This document shows positions 1 to 31,214 of a DNA stretch of 33,623 bases, one piece after another. The stretch is from contig LDOQ01000180.1 of assembly GCA_001887945.1 (NCBI GenBank), positions 1 through 33,623 of the forward strand. Direction: 5' to 3'. The stretch is from Spraguea lophii. Lineage: Eukaryota > Microsporidia > Spragueidae. Position numbers and translations under genes: made by a program. The notes beneath the pieces are model-generated. The model made no database searches and was not told the DNA's origin. It saw nothing but the letters and a program-made list of their open reading frames with translations. Position 1 is the first letter of the stretch; each line of letters begins with the position of its first letter.

Positions 1-237
1 TCAATACAGGGATTGCAACTACATCAGCTAAACACTACTTTAATCTAGTAGCGGGGCCGTCATACAAGGCACAGCTATGCTGCGCTATCGAAACCTCACC
101 CACTCAACAACCTTTTTCTTCTCTTCTGCATTTATTATTATTATTTTTTTTTTGAAAATTTTTTCTGGATGAGGGATTCGAACCCGCCAGGCTTGGGGTT
201 TGGTTACCACCCCACGACCACTGGGCCAGGCGGGACT
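1..237 (-). repeat. SINE-like repeat, copy 1 (cut by window edge), with tRNA-like head
   Basis: Read on the minus strand, this copy starts with a tRNA-like head (about 237 to 165) carrying an A-box TGGCCCAGTGG (228-218) and a B-box GGTTCGAATCC (184-174). These are the internal RNA polymerase III promoter elements. An A-rich linker and a body follow, running off the left edge. The body (about 1-140) is nearly identical to the reverse complement of 18110-18250, with only a few mismatches, so the family moved recently. The head has no paired acceptor stem, so it is tRNA-derived rather than a working tRNA. Alternatively it is a tRNA pseudogene beside an unrelated repeat, but the same head-body junction recurs at 5395. 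Confidence 0.6.
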
Positions 238-3539: not shown

Positions 3540-5030
3540 GATATAATTATTGCAATAGATTTTTATAATAAATTTAAATTTAAAACAATTAAATATTATT
3601 TTTTTTTACTTTTTTATAAGTATATATTTAAATATTTTCCATTGTACTTATGATACTTGTTCATATGTTTATGAAAACTCCTATAAAAATTATTTAACGT
3701 AATACGCTTTTTATTTTATTTTTAATTCAGTAAAATACAAGGTGACTTAATTCTATACTGTAATTAAAAATTAATAACCAAATAAATTGATATATAAAAT
3801 ATCACTCAAACATACCAACCATCCAAATATTGTTTTGTTTGTGACAAAAATTTTAGATAAAAAAAATCGATGAATATAGATTACAACAAATTTTTAATTA
3901 GAAAATTGAATTTTCGTTTATCGATTTTAAAAAATGAAAAAATATAAAAACTTAGAGGAGCCTGTTCTTTAAAGTGCAATCTTAACATTTATGTCTGGAA
4001 TTTCTCTGATACTAATGGATTTTTAAAGACAGTTTTCGGTGAAATGTACCTTAAAAGATCCCCATCAACGATGAAAAGTGTTAGAGGAAGTTGTTGTGTT
4101 TGTTATAAAACCCGTAATAAAAAACAAATTATATTTAAAAAACAGTCTATTTTATGGTTTTAAATGATCTTTCAACATTGTTATTTTAAAAAAATATAAA
4201 ATTAATGATTTATACGAACAATTAAGGAATTTAAATTCAAAGGAATAGATGTATAGAAAAACATATTTAAATAAACGCGAATTTAAATTCGAATGAAAAT
4301 ACAACGAGGATATAAAAATCGACAAAATTGGTGTATAGGAAATATATATATGGAACACCAAATATATTTTTTTGTATAAAACATAGATCCGTTATAAAGT
4401 GGAGAGGGAAAAAGACGCCACAACAATCATTGGTAGTTAGAATGCTATAATTTCCTTGAGAATGACAATTATATTCATAAAAAAATAAAATCATTCAGAA
4501 AATTTTGGTAATCCTAATAACATAAATTTTGTATTCAGAACATTAAGAACAGATGGAAATCCCTTAAAAATATCTAAAAGAATATAGTTCTAATATTTAG
4601 CAAGACTTTAAATTTAATATACAAAATCTATTTTTTACAAAACATAATGCTAATTTAATAAATTCCCGGGTTTATTTAAAGCTAAAATCGGCCATCTTTT
4701 TTAAATTATCTCTTTTCTACATAAATTTTTTAATAGGAACATCTAGAAAAATTTTACTTTAAATTCAAACGAAAAAGTATTTTATACGAACATAATTTCC
4801 ACAAAATTAAAATTGTGGTTTCCTAATATTATGTAATCACTTCCAAAACACCTTGTTTAAATTTTAATTTTCTGTTTTTATATAATCTTTTAATCATTAA
4901 TAATTTGCTTATATTGTTTGTGTGCTTATTTCTCTATTTCTTAATCCTAAAAGTGCTTGAACGATATATTTTCTAACGATTATAAATTAGGTTTTGAAAT
5001 GCTTTAAATCTATTTTTTATTTATAAAAAT
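3540..5030. other. AT-rich spacer, no gene recognised
   Basis: About 1.5 kb with only short reading frames that lack family motifs and have low-complexity composition. I see no tRNA, rRNA or clear repeat. It may hold transposon debris too decayed to classify. Confidence 0.4.
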
Positions 5031-5034
5031 TTCT

Positions 5035-5463
5035 TGATTGGTTAAGACTTATTATACCCGGTATTGTTAGTTCCATAAAACATGAATAACTTGTAATAAC
5101 GTGTTTCACTATATACCATGTATTTATTTCTATATTGCCATATATATTAGGATGTTGGAATATTACGTATCATATCCTTTAACAACCTTGCTGTGATTCT
5201 GATCTCTTTCTTGGTATAATATTGATTGAACAACTAATCGATATAGAAATTGTAACCCCATCTAGACATTACTTTAATCCAATAGCGACCATCATATTTG
5301 CAATAACCAAAATTATGTTATCAAACCCTCACCCACTCAACAACCAATCACTTCTCTTATGCTTATTTTATTATATTAAAAAAAAACTCTTCTGGATGAG
5401 AATCCGAATCCGCCAGGTTTGGGAATTGGGTTGCCGTCTAACAATCAGTAAGTTGGCCCGACT
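5035..5463 (-). repeat. SINE-like repeat, copy 2, old but near full length
   Basis: On the minus strand, the head (5463 to about 5395) resembles the copy 1 head base for base in many places but has lost a clean A-box and B-box. The body (about 5390 to 5050) aligns end to end with 18100-18430, for example the shared ACTTTAATC and CACCCACTCAACAACC strings at 5271-5350. It carries many C-to-T-like changes. This copy shows that head and body form one unit of about 430 bp. Its head end sits directly beside the 3' end and T-run of tRNA-Lys. Confidence 0.6.
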
Positions 5464-5464
5464 T

Positions 5465-5471
5465 AAAAAAA
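5465..5471 (-). terminator. RNA polymerase III T-run terminator of tRNA-Lys
   Basis: Seven A on the plus strand give a run of seven T on the tRNA strand, starting two bases after the tRNA 3' end. This is the standard signal for RNA polymerase III release. Confidence 0.75.
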
Positions 5472-5472
5472 T

Positions 5473-5545
5473 CGCCTCGTGGGGGACTCGAACCCCCGAC
5501 ATTTCGGTTAAAAGCCGAACGCTCTACCGACTGAGCTAACGAGGC
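5473..5545 (-). tRNA. tRNA-Lys (anticodon UUU)
   Basis: A full cloverleaf can be drawn: acceptor GCCTCGT/ACGAGGC (7 bp), D-arm GCTC/GAGC, anticodon stem TTCGG/CCGAA with loop CTTTTAA (anticodon TTT), a 5-base variable region, and T-arm GGGGG/CCCCC with loop TTCGAGT. All stems are perfectly paired. The length is 72 nt plus a discriminator base G. No intron is present. The internal A-box and B-box are intact and a T7 terminator follows, so it should be functional. Confidence 0.96.
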
Positions 5546-10149: not shown

Positions 10150-11070
10150 TTTATATATGATAAAATTATTATTTTTCATAATATAAATTTAAACATTAAT
10201 TTTTACAGTATTTTTAGTTTCGAAAATTCCAAACCATAAAGATTTAAATCACTTTGACGTAATAATTTGAAATGGAAAAAACCCCGAACTTCACGGATAT
10301 TGATTTCTATGTAAAATAATAAATAGTTATATTTAAAAAAAGGAATAAAATTATCTTGAAAATTTTGATTAAATATCCCATTATATGTATTGCTGATCTT
10401 TTCGCATATATTATTATAAAAGTTTCTAAAAAAATCATTTGTATTAAAATTAAACTTTCAATAACAGTTATAATATTTCCTTTATTAATAAAACCTTTAT
10501 TTATTGAACTTTCTCGATTGGCTGTAGTTTACTGGGGTCTAAAAATTTTGGTTCCTAGAAGCATGATCATTTGAAACCCATCAAGAATAAAATCTGATGT
10601 TTTTTATCGCTTCCATTATTTTATTTTTATAATTTTCTAGACCTTTTTAAAGTGATTTCTTTCTCTACTATCTTTTTTCTTTCCTTGTTGTATCCGTATA
10701 TCGCAGTGCAGATAGTAACACATAACACAGTTTTCAAGATCTCCGATTATTATTTGTTACATACGCTGTTAATATCTGACCATTTTTTGTCACCGCTTCT
10801 TTTTTTCGATTTTTTTCTTATAGGCAAAAAAATATTAATTTTACATTTTGAATTTGAGAAGTAGAGTCACAACCATATGTAACACTATAAACATTAATGC
10901 GATCTGTAATGCAAAGTTATTTTGGTATTTTTTTGATATTAAGGCATATGAAAAATAGCACCTATGAATGAAATGCTCGTTACAACACGAGGCTAATTAC
11001 TTGGTAAATATGTTAATAATTTTGTGTTTGCTGATTAGCTAATGAGCATAGATATATTGAAAAGTAATGT
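10150..11070 (-). other. Spacer, possibly decayed pol sequence of the same retroelement
   Basis: It lies between the integrase zinc-finger remnant and the Merlin insertion. Minus-strand segments near 10370-10640 (e.g. NDFFRNFYNNICEKIS) weakly resemble the reverse transcriptase-RNase H connection, but no catalytic motif can be named. This is inferred mainly from position. Confidence 0.25.
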
Positions 11071-14272: not shown

Positions 14273-14918
14273 TAAATAAGAAATTTAATAAATGACTGCA
14301 ACTATTTTTAATTTAATTAAATTATTTATCCATGTTTTATTTTCTATGGATTTAGAGATTAAAACTTTTTAGTTAATAATATTTTAACTATAATTAAAAA
14401 CGTCATGGTATATTTTACATCGTCTTCAAGATTGTCAATTCCTTAAAGTACGGTAATTTATACCAATTATTTTCGTTATATATACGTATTAATCTCGTCT
14501 TACCTTATGCTTCAAAGTATTACAAAAGATGCTTAAATGATTTATTAAACTGTAAAGATAAGAAAATTAGTTAATTCTATCGTATAAATAATGTTTACTT
14601 AACCCGATGTCAATACATATAAGATATAAATTATTATTTATTATGTAATGAAATTTTACATATTTTATTAATACGACAAATTTAATATATCAGTTATTGT
14701 GTATTTATTTACTTACTGAAACTCACACGTGATATTATTATATTGATTAATTAATAATGAGTTAATATAATCTTTATAAATACGATATAATAGATAAATA
14801 TTCTATAATTCATTCAACAAACGATTACTCAAAAAAACATTACCTACCCTAACCCTTTCTTAAATTATAAATAATATTTTTAATGTTAATATTTGTTTGT
14901 TTTAATATAAAAATTCTA
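14273..14918. other. Intergenic spacer between the PP4R3-like and Sec8-like genes
   Basis: About 650 bp of AT-rich sequence with no reading frame. C-rich strings (CTACCC, AACCC) cluster at 14845-14860 and again at 14917-14921 just before the next start. They may be part of the Sec8-like promoter. Confidence 0.4.
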
Positions 14919-17745: not shown

Positions 17746-18095
17746 TGGTTATAATAATTAATTATTGATAATTGTAATGTTTTTCTTTAAGTAATAGTTT
17801 TTATTATAAAAAGAGTGTAATGGTTTTCTTTTATTTTTAAAATTACAGGGTTCTATTGGTTTTTTAATCATAGTAAATTGAATTGAATGTATCAAAATTC
17901 CACTATTTTCATTTAACACAGTGAATTGAGTATGAGTGATAATTGTATAATAAATAATTATTTTTAATAGTTGTTTTAACTTTCAAAAAAGATATATAAA
18001 AGAATGGTTTAAAAAGAAAATAAATTTATTAGATAATCTTTAATAAGTCCGATAATGTGGAAAACGGGGTATTTTTTATTATATAAATAAAAATA
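17746..18095. other. Spacer downstream of the Sec8-like gene
   Basis: AT-rich, with no gene or RNA recognised. Confidence 0.4.
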
Positions 18096-18104
18096 TTCTA
18101 AATA

Positions 18105-18495
18105 AAAATAATAAACGCAGAAGAGAAGAAAAAGGTTGTTGAGTGGGTGAGGTTTCGATAGCGCAGCATAGCTGTGCCTTGTATGACGACCCCGCTACTA
18201 GATTAAAGTAGTGTTCAGCTGATGTAGTTGCAATCCCTGTATTGATTAGTGACTCGGCCAATACTATGCAACGAAAGAGGCTGGGAATTCCTTAAGAGCT
18301 GGAAGTGGGGGCGGCGACGTGCACCAGACGCAAAATCCTAACACTCTGGAGCATAAGGTAAGATGAGATTAATGCATATCTGTAGCGAAACCAGTTAGTA
18401 CAAGTTTAATTTCGCTCGAGGAACCGAAGGTCACAGACCATGGTAGGCCGCAACCGGCCAGGGAACTTTGATAAATAAAAGTTTCATTCGTAAAA
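18105..18495 (+). repeat. SINE-like repeat, copy 3, best-preserved body and 3' end
   Basis: The body matches copy 1 almost exactly (18110-18250 versus 140-1, reverse complement), but the tRNA-like head is absent, as in a 5'-truncated retroposon. The 3' part is G+C-rich and hairpin-forming: AGCGAAA (18384-18390) pairs with TTTCGCT (18410-18416), GGTC-ACA-GACC spans 18429-18439, and GGCC-GCAACC-GGCC spans 18446-18459. It ends in an A-rich stretch (about 18475-18515). A short minus-strand frame is also open across copies 1 and 3, but this mostly reflects near-identity of the DNA. Confidence 0.65.
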
Positions 18496-18544
18496 AAATA
18501 AAAAAATAATAAAAATATTCTTTTTTATATTTTTATTTCCATTC

Positions 18545-19340
18545 GATCCTCTTGTTTTTAAAATCTTTTGAATACTTTCATCTATTCTCTATATTTTATG
18601 TGTAAATTATAGGATTGTTTGGATCTGCGAAATTTTTAGAGTTATTTACATTATAATGGGTATAATGTATTTTGGCCAATGAATTATGTATCTTCTAGGA
18701 TTTAGAAATAATGATTGTTTTATATTTCGAAATAAGATTTTTTCAAGTCTTGGTACATTTCTTTTAATAGATATTTCAAAAAAACTTTTTTTCCTCTATA
18801 CATAATCCTCTAATACATCGTTGTTGTTTTTGTTATTCTACCTCTGTTATATTTTCTTTTTGCCAAATAAATTTCATCTGTATCGACAATTACTTTTTTT
18901 TCTTATTCTTTTTTCGATAGAGATTTCATTTTAGTTCATAATAAGTTCCTAATATTTACATAGGTAATAAAAGAAATACTGTTTTCTTTTAAATTCTTTT
19001 TTGTTTTTTTTTTGAAATTGTATAAATTAATAATAATCTTTTTGATAAAGGTGTATGCAACCCATATAATAATGATTTTTTCCGATAGAAAATGAAATTT
19101 TTATACTTTTAAAATTAATATATTTTCATAACCATTTATCTATACTCACATTAATCATTACTATAAATATTTTTTTCACCTAGAATATTTTTAAAATATA
19201 TAAACGTTCAAAATAATCAAAAATTTCTGTGTGTTTCTCATCAAAGAAATTAATCCCAACCTATTAATAGCATTAATTTTTATTATAAAGGTCTCTTTTA
19301 TAATTCGTTTTGAAAGTTAAAACGATTTTTTGCCGCATAA
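18545..19340 (-). pseudogene. Merlin transposase pseudogene (subfamily with 30555 copy)
   Basis: On the minus strand one frame reads VIVDTDEIYLAKRKYNRGRI, the ISXO2/Merlin first-Asp box with the 'KRKYNRGR' signature (about 18895 to 18835). A following segment reads KKVFLKYLLKEM. The upstream part (19340 to 19100) should be the zinc-ribbon region but is decayed. Nucleotide similarity to 30640-31110 continues through several hundred bases on the opposite strand. Stops and frame changes mark it as dead. Confidence 0.6.
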
Positions 19341-20874: not shown

Positions 20875-23490
20875 ATGTTTTTGTACTTTGTTATGTTATT
20901 ATGTGCAAACATAGAACCGTCACTTTTTGATCAGTTAATTTTATTAACAGAAAACCCAGAAAACATTATTTTATACAAAGAAGATTATATACGAGAATTA
21001 AATTCTGTAGATGCGAATATGAACCTGGATGTATTTAATTTTTCCATCAAAATAACAATACTTAGGGAATCACAATCAATACCAAGAATTATTTATGAAT
21101 GTATAGGTTTGAAAAGTTTTACATCGGAAAACAGTTTTTTAAACAGATTATCTGAAGATTTTAAAAAACTAGTCAATTTAAAATATTTGATATTGAATAA
21201 TAATAATTTTACAAAAATACCAAATGTTATTTTTTCTTTAATAAATTTAAAAATATTAGAAATGAATGGAAATAATATAAAAATGATTTCCAGTAATATT
21301 AAACATTTGAAACAACTTAAAATATTAAGATTAGAAAAAAACTGTATTATACGTATACCAACTGGGTTTAGTGAACTTACAAATTTAATAAATCTAAACT
21401 TATCTCATAACATAGAATTATTTGTTCCAAATATGTTTACAACATTAGAAAATAAGCATACTGATTTTTTTAATATGATAAATACTTTAGATCTTAAAGT
21501 TTTATATTTAAATGATACAGGTCTTCAGTTTATACCAGAAGATTTCGGATTTAAAAATCTAGAAGAATTTCATGCAAACGATAATAAACTCAATAGAATT
21601 GATATGAATACGGTAAAAAATTGTTCTTTAAAAAAAATATTTCTTGATAATAACAACTTTAAAATTTTTCCTATGTGTATTTTAACGATAAATAGCATCG
21701 AATTGATTTTTCTCGATTTAAACAATATTCAGAAAGTAAACATAAAAGACATGATATCCCCTAATTTAATATATTTGACTTTAAATCGTAATCAAATTAA
21801 AGATTTTTATATGTGTGCTAACGCAGTTCCATCTTTGAAAGTATTAAGATTAAATGATAATAATATAAAAAATTTTATTATGGATTCTAGAAATGTTTCA
21901 TGTTTAGAAGAATTGTATTTAAGAGAAAATAATATATCTGTTTTTGATAATAAGTTAACTGGGTTTAAAAATCTTAAGTTGTTAAACCTACGTGGAAATA
22001 ATATTTGTGTGATTGGTAATCTAAATGATATAAGTGATCAAGAAATTACATTAAAATTGCAAGTAGAATGTATAGATATAATAAAAAATCTAGTGTGTAC
22101 ACGACGTATTAATGAAATTAGTGTATCATGTAAAACTAAAACAAAAAATGAAAGCAGATTAAATATGTTCGAAAATTATACAGAAGAGAATGTTATTAAA
22201 ATTATGAAACTGGAATTTTGCCATCTGGAAAACATTCCTAAAGATATAGAAAAACTTATTTTTGTAGAAAATCTATCTTTTAAAAATAATAATTTAACAA
22301 AAGTGTATAACTATTTTAAAGACTTAAAATCTTTGAAACATCTTGATTTGTCTTATAACAAAATTAACTTTATTGAATCAGATATTTTGCTTTTAGAATC
22401 TTTAGAAATGTTAGATCTCGGGCATAATTGTTTAAAATATTTTCCACCATCTACGAAATATTTTAATCATAAGAAACTTAAAATAAAATGGACTGCAAAT
22501 GAAATTTTTCTCTTTGGTAATGAGCCAAATTTAGGGTGGATGGAGATACCACCTCATTATGCATCAACGGTAAAGATTGGATATTCAGAAAGGTATTTTA
22601 AATCCAATATGGCAATTGGTTTATATACAGTGCACTTTAAAGATTTATATCAATGGGATGTAAAAAGGATTGCACAAATAATATCAAATGAACCAGACGA
22701 TGAATATTTGCCATATAGTGAAATAATGGAATTGTGGAATTCATATGTGAAACCATATATAACAGCAGAAAATATAATTGAATCAATAGAAAATTATATA
22801 AATGCTTTATATAAGTTAAATAATATTATAATACCTTATATTACCGGATTCACTTTAAAGCAGTATGATACAATAAAAATATATTTGACAGCAGTGTTTA
22901 AATTCATAAAGGATAAAGATCCTTATCAGATAGAAAATATATGTACATCTATTTCACAAGAAACCCTTTTTTGTTATGATGCTCAATATGAAATACTTCA
23001 ACATATATATATTTCTTTAAAAACCGGAGAAAGTTTTAATATTACTTATTTTATTAAAGAAATAATATATAAAATAAAATATGATATTCTTTTACATATA
23101 GTTACATCAAATACAAATACACAAAATGTTCATGGGGTTGCTTATTGGAGAAATGAATTATCAGACGAAATTGGTTTTATAAAAAACGAATCTAAATATA
23201 TATACACGCATAAAGAAACTTTAATTGATAATAAGGAATATATTTTATTTCAATTTTTCCTTTTATTTAAAGCAGAAAAGGTCGCAACAGAAATAGTTGA
23301 AAAAATTAATAAGAGTGGAAACTTTTTATGTCTTGCATCACAATTTATAGTAGAACATGAAACAGATGAGTCTAAACTCGAAAAATATATGGAATTCGAT
23401 AGTATTGATTTATTAGATGTAAGAAGTATAACAAATGAAGGTGCAATTTTTATAATGGAAGTAATGGAATTATTTACGAAAGAAATATAA
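20875..23490 (+). CDS. Large leucine-rich-repeat protein, possibly secreted
   Basis: An 871-residue protein. The first 15 residues (MFLYFVMLLCANIEPS) are hydrophobic and could act as a signal peptide. From about residue 95 to 395 there are many LRRs of about 23 residues with the LxxLxLxxNxIxxI pattern (e.g. LKILRLEKNCIIRIP, LKVLRLNDNNIKNF, LKLLNLRGNNICVI), and a second block lies at about 440-520 (LKHLDLSYNKINFIE, LEMLDLGHNCLKYFP). The C-terminal 350 residues are predicted helical and match no family I know. LRR proteins with signal peptides are expanded in several microsporidia and may meet host proteins; that role is inferred. Unlike the housekeeping genes it has no CCC motif and no Asn runs. 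A relative starts beyond the right edge (33503-33623). LRR content is certain, secretion is not. Confidence 0.85.
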   Translation: MFLYFVMLLCANIEPSLFDQLILLTENPENIILYKEDYIRELNSVDANMNLDVFNFSIKITILRESQSIPRIIYECIGLKSFTSENSFLNRLSEDFKKLVNLKYLILNNNNFTKIPNVIFSLINLKILEMNGNNIKMISSNIKHLKQLKILRLEKNCIIRIPTGFSELTNLINLNLSHNIELFVPNMFTTLENKHTDFFNMINTLDLKVLYLNDTGLQFIPEDFGFKNLEEFHANDNKLNRIDMNTVKNCSLKKIFLDNNNFKIFPMCILTINSIELIFLDLNNIQKVNIKDMISPNLIYLTLNRNQIKDFYMCANAVPSLKVLRLNDNNIKNFIMDSRNVSCLEELYLRENNISVFDNKLTGFKNLKLLNLRGNNICVIGNLNDISDQEITLKLQVECIDIIKNLVCTRRINEISVSCKTKTKNESRLNMFENYTEENVIKIMKLEFCHLENIPKDIEKLIFVENLSFKNNNLTKVYNYFKDLKSLKHLDLSYNKINFIESDILLLESLEMLDLGHNCLKYFPPSTKYFNHKKLKIKWTANEIFLFGNEPNLGWMEIPPHYASTVKIGYSERYFKSNMAIGLYTVHFKDLYQWDVKRIAQIISNEPDDEYLPYSEIMELWNSYVKPYITAENIIESIENYINALYKLNNIIIPYITGFTLKQYDTIKIYLTAVFKFIKDKDPYQIENICTSISQETLFCYDAQYEILQHIYISLKTGESFNITYFIKEIIYKIKYDILLHIVTSNTNTQNVHGVAYWRNELSDEIGFIKNESKYIYTHKETLIDNKEYILFQFFLLFKAEKVATEIVEKINKSGNFLCLASQFIVEHETDESKLEKYMEFDSIDLLDVRSITNEGAIFIMEVMELFTKEI

Positions 23491-23690
23491 AAGTTAATTA
23501 AAATGATTTGGGTTCGAATTATTAATTTAACAGATTATGTGGCTATTTATTATTACTTTTAACATTCTAAAGATATTTAAAAATTTTAAAAAGTATTATT
23601 GTATTTACTATAAAAATAACTACAATATATACATTATAAATAAACTGTTATTGTAACTATTGTTATAATATTATATATTATTTTATACGA
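23491..23690 (+). other. 3' flank conserved with the second LRR gene
   Basis: The 200 bp after the stop are strongly similar to the reverse complement of 33313-33502, including a shared GTTATTGTAACTATTG string. Similarity ends abruptly near 23685. This shows that the two LRR genes arose by duplication of a unit that includes their 3' flank. Confidence 0.75.
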
Positions 23691-25035: not shown

Positions 25036-25365
25036 TAATGTATTATTCTTGAACTTTAACGATTTCATTGAATTAAAGTATTGTTTAATTTATGTAATTG
25101 CAAACTTTATATTGATTTGTTATTTTACCAATATTATGCCAAGAAAGAAGTTAAGAATTTTTAAAAAGATGAGAGGAGACGGTGATGGACATCATACGTA
25201 AAATTACAACACTTGGGAACATAAGATAAGATGTAATTAATGTATATATGTAATAGAATCAATTAGTACAAGTTTAAATGTGTTTTAAACACCTCAGATC
25301 GTAAACCATGGTAGACCACAGCCAGTCAGGAAATTTTTACAAAAAAAAATCTCATTCAAAAAACT
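25036..25365 (+). repeat. SINE-like repeat, copy 4, heavily decayed
   Basis: It aligns with copy 3 (18160-18480) from GAATTAAAGTATTG near 25070 through TTAGTACAAGTTTAAATG near 25262 and AAACCATGGTAGACCACAGC near 25303. It ends in an A-rich run (25339-25348). Most differences replace G or C with A or T and the hairpins are eroded, so this is an old copy. No head is visible. Confidence 0.6.
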
Positions 25366-28829: not shown

Positions 28830-29260
28830 TGTTGATTTTAATTGATAGATTAAATATTTATGTTATTGTTTAAAACAGTTTTATTTTTTATTAATTATTT
28901 TTTAATCAGGTTTAATAATTGAAATCTTTTTTTACTAAATTTAGCTAAACTTTGTTGTTTATGAATGCATAAACAGCCCAAGATAGAGGATATCGATATT
29001 AGGATTAAAAGTTTATGTTATCAAATGCATAATTTTTTAACATATATTTTAATAATATAAATCTAAAGAAACCTTAAATTTATATCGGGCATCAAAGATT
29101 ATGGATTACGATATGTCTCAAGTGATCAGAAAACTTCTATAAATAAAAGGTTCATTTTTTTAAAGACTGGATATTAGACATCAGTAAATATTAAATTAGT
29201 TTCAAGAAAATAATTTAATGAAAATAATAGTCATCTTAAAATAATTATATTATAATTATT
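28830..29260. other. Upstream spacer of the Ubp14-like gene
   Basis: AT-rich, with no gene or RNA recognised. Confidence 0.4.
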
Positions 29261-30554: not shown

Positions 30555-31110
30555 AGGTTTTTATGGTTATTTGGGATGTTTTGTATTTTAAAAGCATTCG
30601 AAAAATGTTCTAAATGTAAAAAGATATTGAAATTAATGATTAATGTGTGTATAGATAAATGGTTATGAATATATATTATTTTAAATGCACGAATACTTCG
30701 ATTTCTACCAGGAAAAAATCATTGTTATACGGCTTAAATACATCTTTATCAAAAATATAATTTAATAATTTATGATTTTTCAAAAAAAACAAAAAAAAAT
30801 TTTTAAGAGAAAACGGTATTTTCAGTATTAGCTATGTAAATGTTAAAAAGATATTATAGATTAAAATGAAAATATAACAGGATTAGAATAACAAAAAATA
30901 GTGATGTGTTAGAGGATTATGTATGGAGACAAAAAAATGTTTTTTTTTGAAATATAGAATAATCATTATTTCTAACTCCGGAAATAGCATAATTCAATAA
31001 TTAAAATAAATTATATTTATCATAAAATAATAATTCTAGAAATCTAATAGATCCAAACAATCTTATAACTTACACACAAAATATAGAGAATAAATAGAAA
31101 TATTCAAAAG
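30555..31110 (+). pseudogene. Merlin transposase remnant (same subfamily as 18545 copy)
   Basis: The N-terminal zinc-ribbon piece KCSKCKKILKLMINVCIDKW lies near 30610-30665. From 30640 on, the DNA tracks the reverse complement of 18600-19160, for example the shared GTATAGATAAATGGTTATGAA string. Relative to that copy it has lost the bases around the first catalytic Asp: the sequence jumps to KYNRIRI near 30870. LEDYVWRQKN follows near 30915. Deletion and stops make it dead. Confidence 0.55.
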
Positions 31111-31214
31111 ATTATTTAATGAATTTAATTTTTTTTAAACTACTTTTTTTATTTTTTTTAAAAGTTAATACAACTTTTTACCATAAGAAACTATATAAAA
31201 ATTTTTATTTATCA

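Follow-up and report, generated by a model that had tools for sequence, protein, structure and literature searches.

The repeat copies of the window and their surroundings

The window, which is the whole stretch of 33,623 nucleotides analysed here, corresponds to one contig (C47) of a 5,273,041-base genome in 73 contigs and has a GC content of 23%. It contains a tRNA-Lys(TTT) gene, a gene for an LRR protein (20875-23490), and young and old copies of a dispersed element (Table 1). The first-pass annotation had described four of these copies as a SINE-like family; BLAST and a profile search recovered all four as genuine copies and refined their boundaries, but three weaker fragments had been overlooked. 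Copies 1 and 3, described there as nearly identical, are 97% alike over 146 bp, and copy 1 is 96-99% identical to other high-scoring copies and 97% identical to the copy of locus L008. The profile match of copy 2 (5449-5014, element positions 15-475, E 4.9e-45) ends short of a decayed head that can be followed by reading up to 5462. Copy 3 (profile match 18096-18494, element positions 90-488, E 1.8e-147) is 98% identical to a full-length copy and is a genuine 5’-truncated insertion. The truncation proposed for the window copies thus stood for copies 3 and 4, which have no head, but copy 1 is cut off by the start of the contig, which falls inside it; its end is a contig edge and not a result of retroposition, and therefore only copies 3 and 4 are truly headless. 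Other contigs also start in the repeat, with the tail word at bases 97-121 of C15, C25, C54, C56, and C60 and at 96-120 of C58, and because this word recurs near contig starts, the assembly has a tendency to break in the repeat.

The window carries other repeats as well. Two Spraguea lophii proteins came out as closest to the LRR protein, the one protein of the window that was searched (55% and 52% identity, 100% query coverage), and we take the genome to be that of a microsporidian related to Spraguea. The 3’ end of the LRR gene with its flank (23370-23682) recurs inverted at the right contig end (33312-33623) at 88% identity, with one 49 bp stretch at 100%. A second, AT-rich repeat lies directly downstream of copy 3 (18562-19192) and recurs inverted at 30601-31113 with 78-82% identity; weaker relatives of it lie near the pair of copies on contig C1. 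By eye, an AT-decayed segment at ~570-690 resembles a remnant of a Ty3-type integrase.

Table 1 Features of the window
Feature	Position	Strand	Remarks
Copy 1	1..236	-	young; complete head and start of body; profile element 1-239
B box GGTTCGAATCC of copy 1	174..184	-	letters read directly
A box TGGCCCAGTGG of copy 1	218..228	-	letters read directly
Copy 2	5014..5462	-	old, decayed, head recognisable; directly behind tRNA-Lys terminator
Pol III terminator (T7 run) of tRNA-Lys, in front of copy 2	5465..5471	-	letters read directly
tRNA-Lys(TTT) gene	5473..5545	-	ARAGORN; Rfam 75.2 bits; copy 2 in its 3’ flank
3’-end fragment	10483..10560	-	element 409-486; profile E 8.6e-7
Old fragment	14430..14522	-	element 333-426; profile E 1.2e-8
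Left TSD AATAAAAATATTCT of copy 3	18086..18099	+	14 bp
Copy 3	18100..18494	+	young; 5’-truncated at element ~90-93; A-rich tail after
Right TSD AATAAAAATATTCT of copy 3	18508..18521	+	14 bp
Copy 4	25067..25360	+	old, AT-decayed, 5’-truncated; element 191-486; E 8.4e-52; 71.5% identity
3’-end fragment	29085..29156	+	element 411-482; profile E 9.2e-6

Structure and copy number of the element

The element is about 487 bp long (487 bp in L008) and is followed by an A-rich tail. It starts with GTCCCGCC (GTCCCGCT in L008) in a head that carries A and B boxes; next come a body of unknown origin and then, in front of the tail, a fixed 3’ end (...TTTCATTCGTAAA). The 5’ end, the 3’ end, and the A-tail are common to the copies read, and every young head read continues into the body except where the end of a contig or locus interrupts it, so that head and body were not found to occur independently. 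The longest sense-strand frame in L008 has 52 aa, and an antisense frame of 106 aa extends beyond the element. With 487 bp plus tail, the element lies below the size of ~700 bp expected of a dispersed, non-coding SINE, and it occurs on many contigs in both orientations. At ~397-470 of locus L004 (C17), the head occurs as a variant that contains a long inverted repeat (GTCCCGCCTGGCCCAGTGGTCGTGGGG...CCCCACGACCACTGGGCCAGGCGGG) and perhaps arose by template switching.

Searches of the genome yielded well over a hundred closely similar, dispersed copies. At least 42 matches were obtained with the body as query (40 at 98-100% and two at 73-77% identity, the best 40 of 430 candidates being scored) and at least 41 with head plus body (40 at 96-100%, the best 40 of 292 candidates being scored). 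A 29-base head pattern matched 126 places with up to three mismatches (50 forward, 76 reverse), and among the 100 places listed, 86 were exact and 14 had one mismatch; a 25-base tail pattern matched 175 places at the same tolerance (85 + 90), and the reversed control gave 0 matches for either pattern. Head word and tail word are thus each present in more than 100 places. The excess of tails over heads is what 5’ truncation predicts, with the proviso that the two patterns differ in length and hence in mismatch tolerance. From the loci we collected 75 matching stretches, which represent about 72 copies because one copy on C5 was counted twice, one of the two stretches being cut by a locus end, and the paired stretches on C10 and on C40 are each one interrupted old copy. 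In two collections with few or no eukaryotes, the head word (viral_contigs) and the body word (genome_contigs) each had 0 matches.

Age and decay of the copies

The 46 young full-length copies differ from each other by 1.9% on average. This diversity is a lower bound because the copies were picked by score, and the low divergence partly reflects the selection of the best-scoring ones. Seventeen variable base columns are common to at least four of the 46 copies, and 24 of the 52 singleton substitutions are C>T or G>A. Thirteen older copies have 68-88% identity and 27-43% GC, between the mean of the young copies (46%) and the background of the window (23%), which bears out the erosion toward A+T that had been noticed in the old window copies. 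One young copy is nested inside an old one (C10, L011). From these sequences, the family was apparently amplified recently from several source subfamilies.

Target-site duplications and 5’ truncation

LINE-type target-site duplications (TSDs) usually range from about 7 to 20 bp. The 3’ end is present in 58 copies; without the one that had too little flanking sequence, 57 entered the TSD analysis, of which 49 are young (>95% identity to L008) and eight older. An exact TSD of at least 9 bp flanks 40 of the 57 copies, all of them among the 49 young ones, and when flanks were paired at random between different copies, TSDs of this length appeared in only 3.1%. The TSD is 13-15 bp long in 32 of the 40 copies, 14 bp being both the commonest length and the median of the 49 young copies. 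Between the TSD and the element there are no bases in 19 and one A in 13 of the 40, and the A-rich tail, measured from the terminal CGT to the TSD, varies from 4 to 19 nt, in agreement with the tail that had been noticed before.

No exact TSD of at least 9 bp was found for the eight older copies, one of which, at a tRNA-Ala gene, has an 8 bp TSD, or for nine of the 49 young ones. By eye, three of these exceptions (C10, C18:46617, and C59) have a TSD with a mismatch or extra bases, while the pair on C1 and the copy on C20 have the look of rearrangements. The element and ~1.25 kb downstream of it are common to C20 and C73 at 95% identity, and the upstream sides of the two differ; this 95% segmental duplication (L032 1502-3236 and L041 1501-3228), which starts at the 5’ end of the element, is either a rearrangement at the repeat or a misassembly. 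The other three young copies that lack an exact TSD of this length are C1:213343, C45:4791, and C67:45258. Two of the three truncated young copies have a TSD (C47:18100-18494, which is copy 3, and C48:6414-6576), and the third, C1:143893, has none. The genome-wide survey that the first-pass annotation had proposed thus brought out common ends, TSDs mostly of 13-15 bp, and truncated copies that carry TSDs, all of which support its SINE interpretation.

The head and its Pol III signals

The clean A and B boxes that had been reported for the head are present in copy 1 (Table 1), the head of copy 2 is still recognisable, and in ten old heads the two boxes look, by eye, like the best-kept parts. 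These motifs were identified as A and B boxes by the box consensus. When the head was aligned with 30 of the 57 tRNAs of the genome and compared with shuffled sequences, tRNA-Trp (z 7.1) and tRNA-Arg(TCG) (z 6.6) scored best. In Rfam the head stays below significance as a tRNA, and a young head folds as a long hairpin with no cloverleaf. The label ‘tRNA-related’ is therefore used here for what the A and B boxes, their spacing, and the alignment scores suggest. None of 46 copies has a run of five T on the sense strand (the longest T-run is four in 43 copies and three in the other three), and T5-T9 runs lie within 14 nt behind 27 of 30 tRNAs of this genome. The lack of T5 is permissive and not proof of Pol III read-through because such a run is likewise missing from 1613 of 2000 shuffled versions of a young copy.

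A tRNA-related SINE family and its alternatives

Taken together, the data make it very probable that the family is a tRNA-related SINE, that is, a non-autonomous retroposon of ~487 bp with an A-rich tail. RNA polymerase III would start at the head and read through the body, which lacks T5; a LINE-type reverse transcriptase would then take up the A-tailed RNA, and target-primed reverse transcription at staggered nicks in AT-rich DNA would insert it; older generations would decay towards the AT-rich background. Three other readings were considered and rejected in view of TSD length, A-rich tail, 5’ truncation, nesting, and decay. That the copies are a dispersed family of functional non-coding RNA genes and not a mobile element would agree with the Pol III-type head and with a fold slightly better than that of shuffled sequences (z -2.0, 2 of 100 shuffles as good), but the TSDs, the truncated copies, the nested insertion, and the decay of old copies argue against it, and no Rfam family was assigned to the element; we regard this reading as very unlikely.

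A solo LTR or a TRIM-like non-autonomous LTR element with a Pol III-like head, of the kind known from the Cassandra, Helenus, and Ajax groups, is still less probable. LTR elements typically have TSDs of 4-6 bp, a range that the TSDs of mostly 13-15 bp exceed, and neither the variable A-rich tail nor the 5’ truncations suit such an element. Ty3-type elements with long open frames do exist in this genome (L091, L092), and LTR elements with small-RNA-like parts are on record (PMC10886601, in the part available), but a BLAST comparison of the element with these two loci produced nothing beyond short A/T-rich matches (E ≥ 0.014). Neither these two loci nor the sense-strand frames thus showed the body as part of a longer element or gene, which had been named as an outcome that would speak against a SINE. 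A MITE or another derivative of a DNA transposon can practically be discounted, because the many closely similar short copies, and the presence in the genome of an insert with terminal inverted repeats (L067), are outweighed by ends that by eye lack terminal inverted repeats and by the A-rich tail, the 5’ truncation, and the TSDs, which are mostly of 13-15 bp and have no fixed length.

Candidates for the LINE partner

Published passages report LINEs in microsporidia, Dong-R4 among them. The RVT_1 profile had nine matches in the genome. Four are Ty3-type, of which C73 (L091) and C44 (L092) were typed by reading of their frames and C48:16630 and C56:47827 by their match to these two loci; two more fall in L093, within the telomerase gene (Telomerase_RBD E 1.1e-15). 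One match, L094 on C5, is a decayed frame with reverse transcriptase motifs that look LINE-like; one open piece of it matches RVT_1 only at E 0.056 and has no second copy in the genome. The last two, a match with four stops (C48:24138-24548) and an open frame of 479 aa at the end of a contig, which covers the first 40 profile positions only (C72:6-146), match neither Ty3-type query, and a LINE fragment may lie at either place. No intact LINE was thus identified among the nine matches, of which these two stay unclassified, PF14529 had 0 matches in the genome, and in the window no RVT_1 match lies near the 3’-only fragments at 10483 and 29085. The absence of a LINE is weak evidence because short repeat contigs may be missing from the assembly, the smallest contig seen being 11.5 kb. 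The LINE that drove the SINE may have died out, may be absent from the assembly, or may hide in an unclassified match, despite the recent amplification of the SINE. The partner is a concrete question; a LINE ending in ...GATAAATAAAAGTTTCATTCGTAAA would be the one.

The family among known SINEs

Microsporidia are textbook cases of genome reduction, and the literature searched mostly gives counts per class for their repeats. A SINE family that is young and sharply bounded offers a record of retroposition in the form of subfamilies, nested insertions, and decay towards AT, and the presence or absence of the 487 bp insert provides locus markers in parasites with which genetic work is difficult. 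The suggestion that the family may be undescribed stood for the family itself, of which, as of any microsporidian SINE family, we found no description in the literature searched (most subscription papers lie outside its coverage), but not for the class, because a repeat table of Nosema bombycis has a ‘SINE’ row of 28,669 bp or 0.18% of the genome, the sole use of the word in the part of that paper available (PMC3614468). The row concerns the same phylum and the same class label, but the passage is without a family, head, TSD, or copy description, and the likeness is one of label only (PMC3614468). The word ‘sine’ occurs 0 times in the main text of six further papers (PMC4202319, PMC7313128, PMC12558613, PMC12449221, PMC13174016, and PMC3749934). 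Other fungi have tRNA-related SINEs too. The AfuSINE2 families of Aspergillus fumigatus, for example, as described in the passages available, are likewise tRNA-related and have short TSDs of 4-14 bp, a likeness by description alone, whereas the Spraguea family has a body of unplaced origin, is young, and resides in a 5 Mb parasite genome (PMC5063351).

Old copies directly behind tRNA terminators

Copy 2 lies directly behind the terminator of the tRNA-Lys gene, and the junction reads tRNA-ATTTTTTTAA-GTCGGGCC. Rfam gave 57 tRNA matches in the genome, and ~3 kb around the 30 best-scoring ones were examined. At four of these 30 loci, Lys(TTT) in the window, Asn(GTT) on C40, Ala(TGC) on C45, and Leu(TAA) on C43, an old SINE starts ~9-11 bp behind the tRNA, past the T-run and on the same strand, and the junctions have the form of a T-run, A or AA, and then the SINE. 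A fifth old SINE follows a tRNA-Lys relic in L065, whose alignment score of 80 compares with a mean of 14.7 for shuffles (sd 2.2, maximum 22). Coordinates alone suggest a sixth case at C52:13825-13902, the weakest of the 57 tRNA matches. Genome-wide, GTGRTCGTG is preceded by a tRNA B box at a distance of 20-50 bp in six places (control 0), namely at Asn, Leu, Ala, the Lys relic, the C52 tRNA match, and one young copy at C1:271366 (L046), which has no tRNA in its locus and was taken as a chance match. The old SINEs behind terminators are found in loci L062 (window 5014-5545), L067, L075, L090, and L065 and, by coordinates alone, at C52:13786-13842.

Four of 30 loci is a strong excess. For 30 tRNAs, 0.025 same-strand SINE starts within 25 bp would be expected from the six other copies in the 91 kb concerned (P(≥4) ~1.5e-8), and with all 57 tRNAs and a generously assumed number of 500 copies the expectation is 0.068 (P ~8e-7), both statistics being computed after the pattern was seen. 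We also considered that tRNA-Lys and its SINE might have been copied as one unit (L062 and the relic in L065) and rejected this; the two SINEs are only 71% alike, and because they are no closer to each other than to other copies, they are independent insertions. At the tRNA-Ala gene the terminator ATATTTTT lies on both sides of the SINE; among the Ala, Lys, and Leu copies it is the only one to show both clearly, a right-hand duplicate of the T-run not being clear for the Lys and Leu copies.

These observations would be explained, tentatively, if the SINE machinery recognises the ends of Pol III genes and if older generations were inserted exactly behind the terminators with duplication of the T-run, as seen at Ala; we hold this to be plausible but short of probable. 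A machinery guided to, or cutting at, Pol III gene ends would then have placed a minority of the older insertions immediately behind tRNA terminators, oriented as the genes are transcribed, and since the T-run is duplicated, the tRNA gene would keep its terminator. The alternative is that the pattern reflects survival and not target choice, insertions behind a terminator being harmless and therefore persistent. Every tRNA-flanking copy read is old (69-90% identity), and no tRNA terminator adjoins any of the 46 young full-length copies that were read, most copies lying elsewhere; both points fit survival, but neutral survival does not predict the same orientation and the same position to within a few bases at four genes and one relic, and we consider it rather unlikely. 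The absence of tRNAs next to the 46 young copies does not prove that target choice has shifted over time, and such a shift was not adopted.

If recognition of Pol III gene ends is true, the family would be a SINE with a Pol III-end target and would extend targeting downstream of tRNA genes to outside the dictyostelids, in a very small genome. As described in the parts available of two papers, the TRE3 LINEs of Dictyostelium integrate on the downstream side of tRNA genes, with transcription running the same way, and Skipper-2 LTR elements lie downstream of tRNA genes as well, in D. discoideum at distances down to 8-23 bp (PMC5006619, PMC5911963). The Spraguea family shares this downstream insertion, but TRE3 and Skipper-2 are an autonomous LINE and LTR element, respectively, whereas here a SINE lies immediately behind the T-run, in a minority of copies (PMC5006619, PMC5911963). 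The copies at terminators make the target choice of a SINE testable, and they are the part of these results most likely to surprise the specialist. The copy at tRNA-Asn is itself interrupted, at ~1684-2995 of L067, by an insert of ~1.3 kb with terminal inverted repeats of ~40 bp (TATAGGGTTTCCCG...), which is probably a DNA transposon with a TA target.
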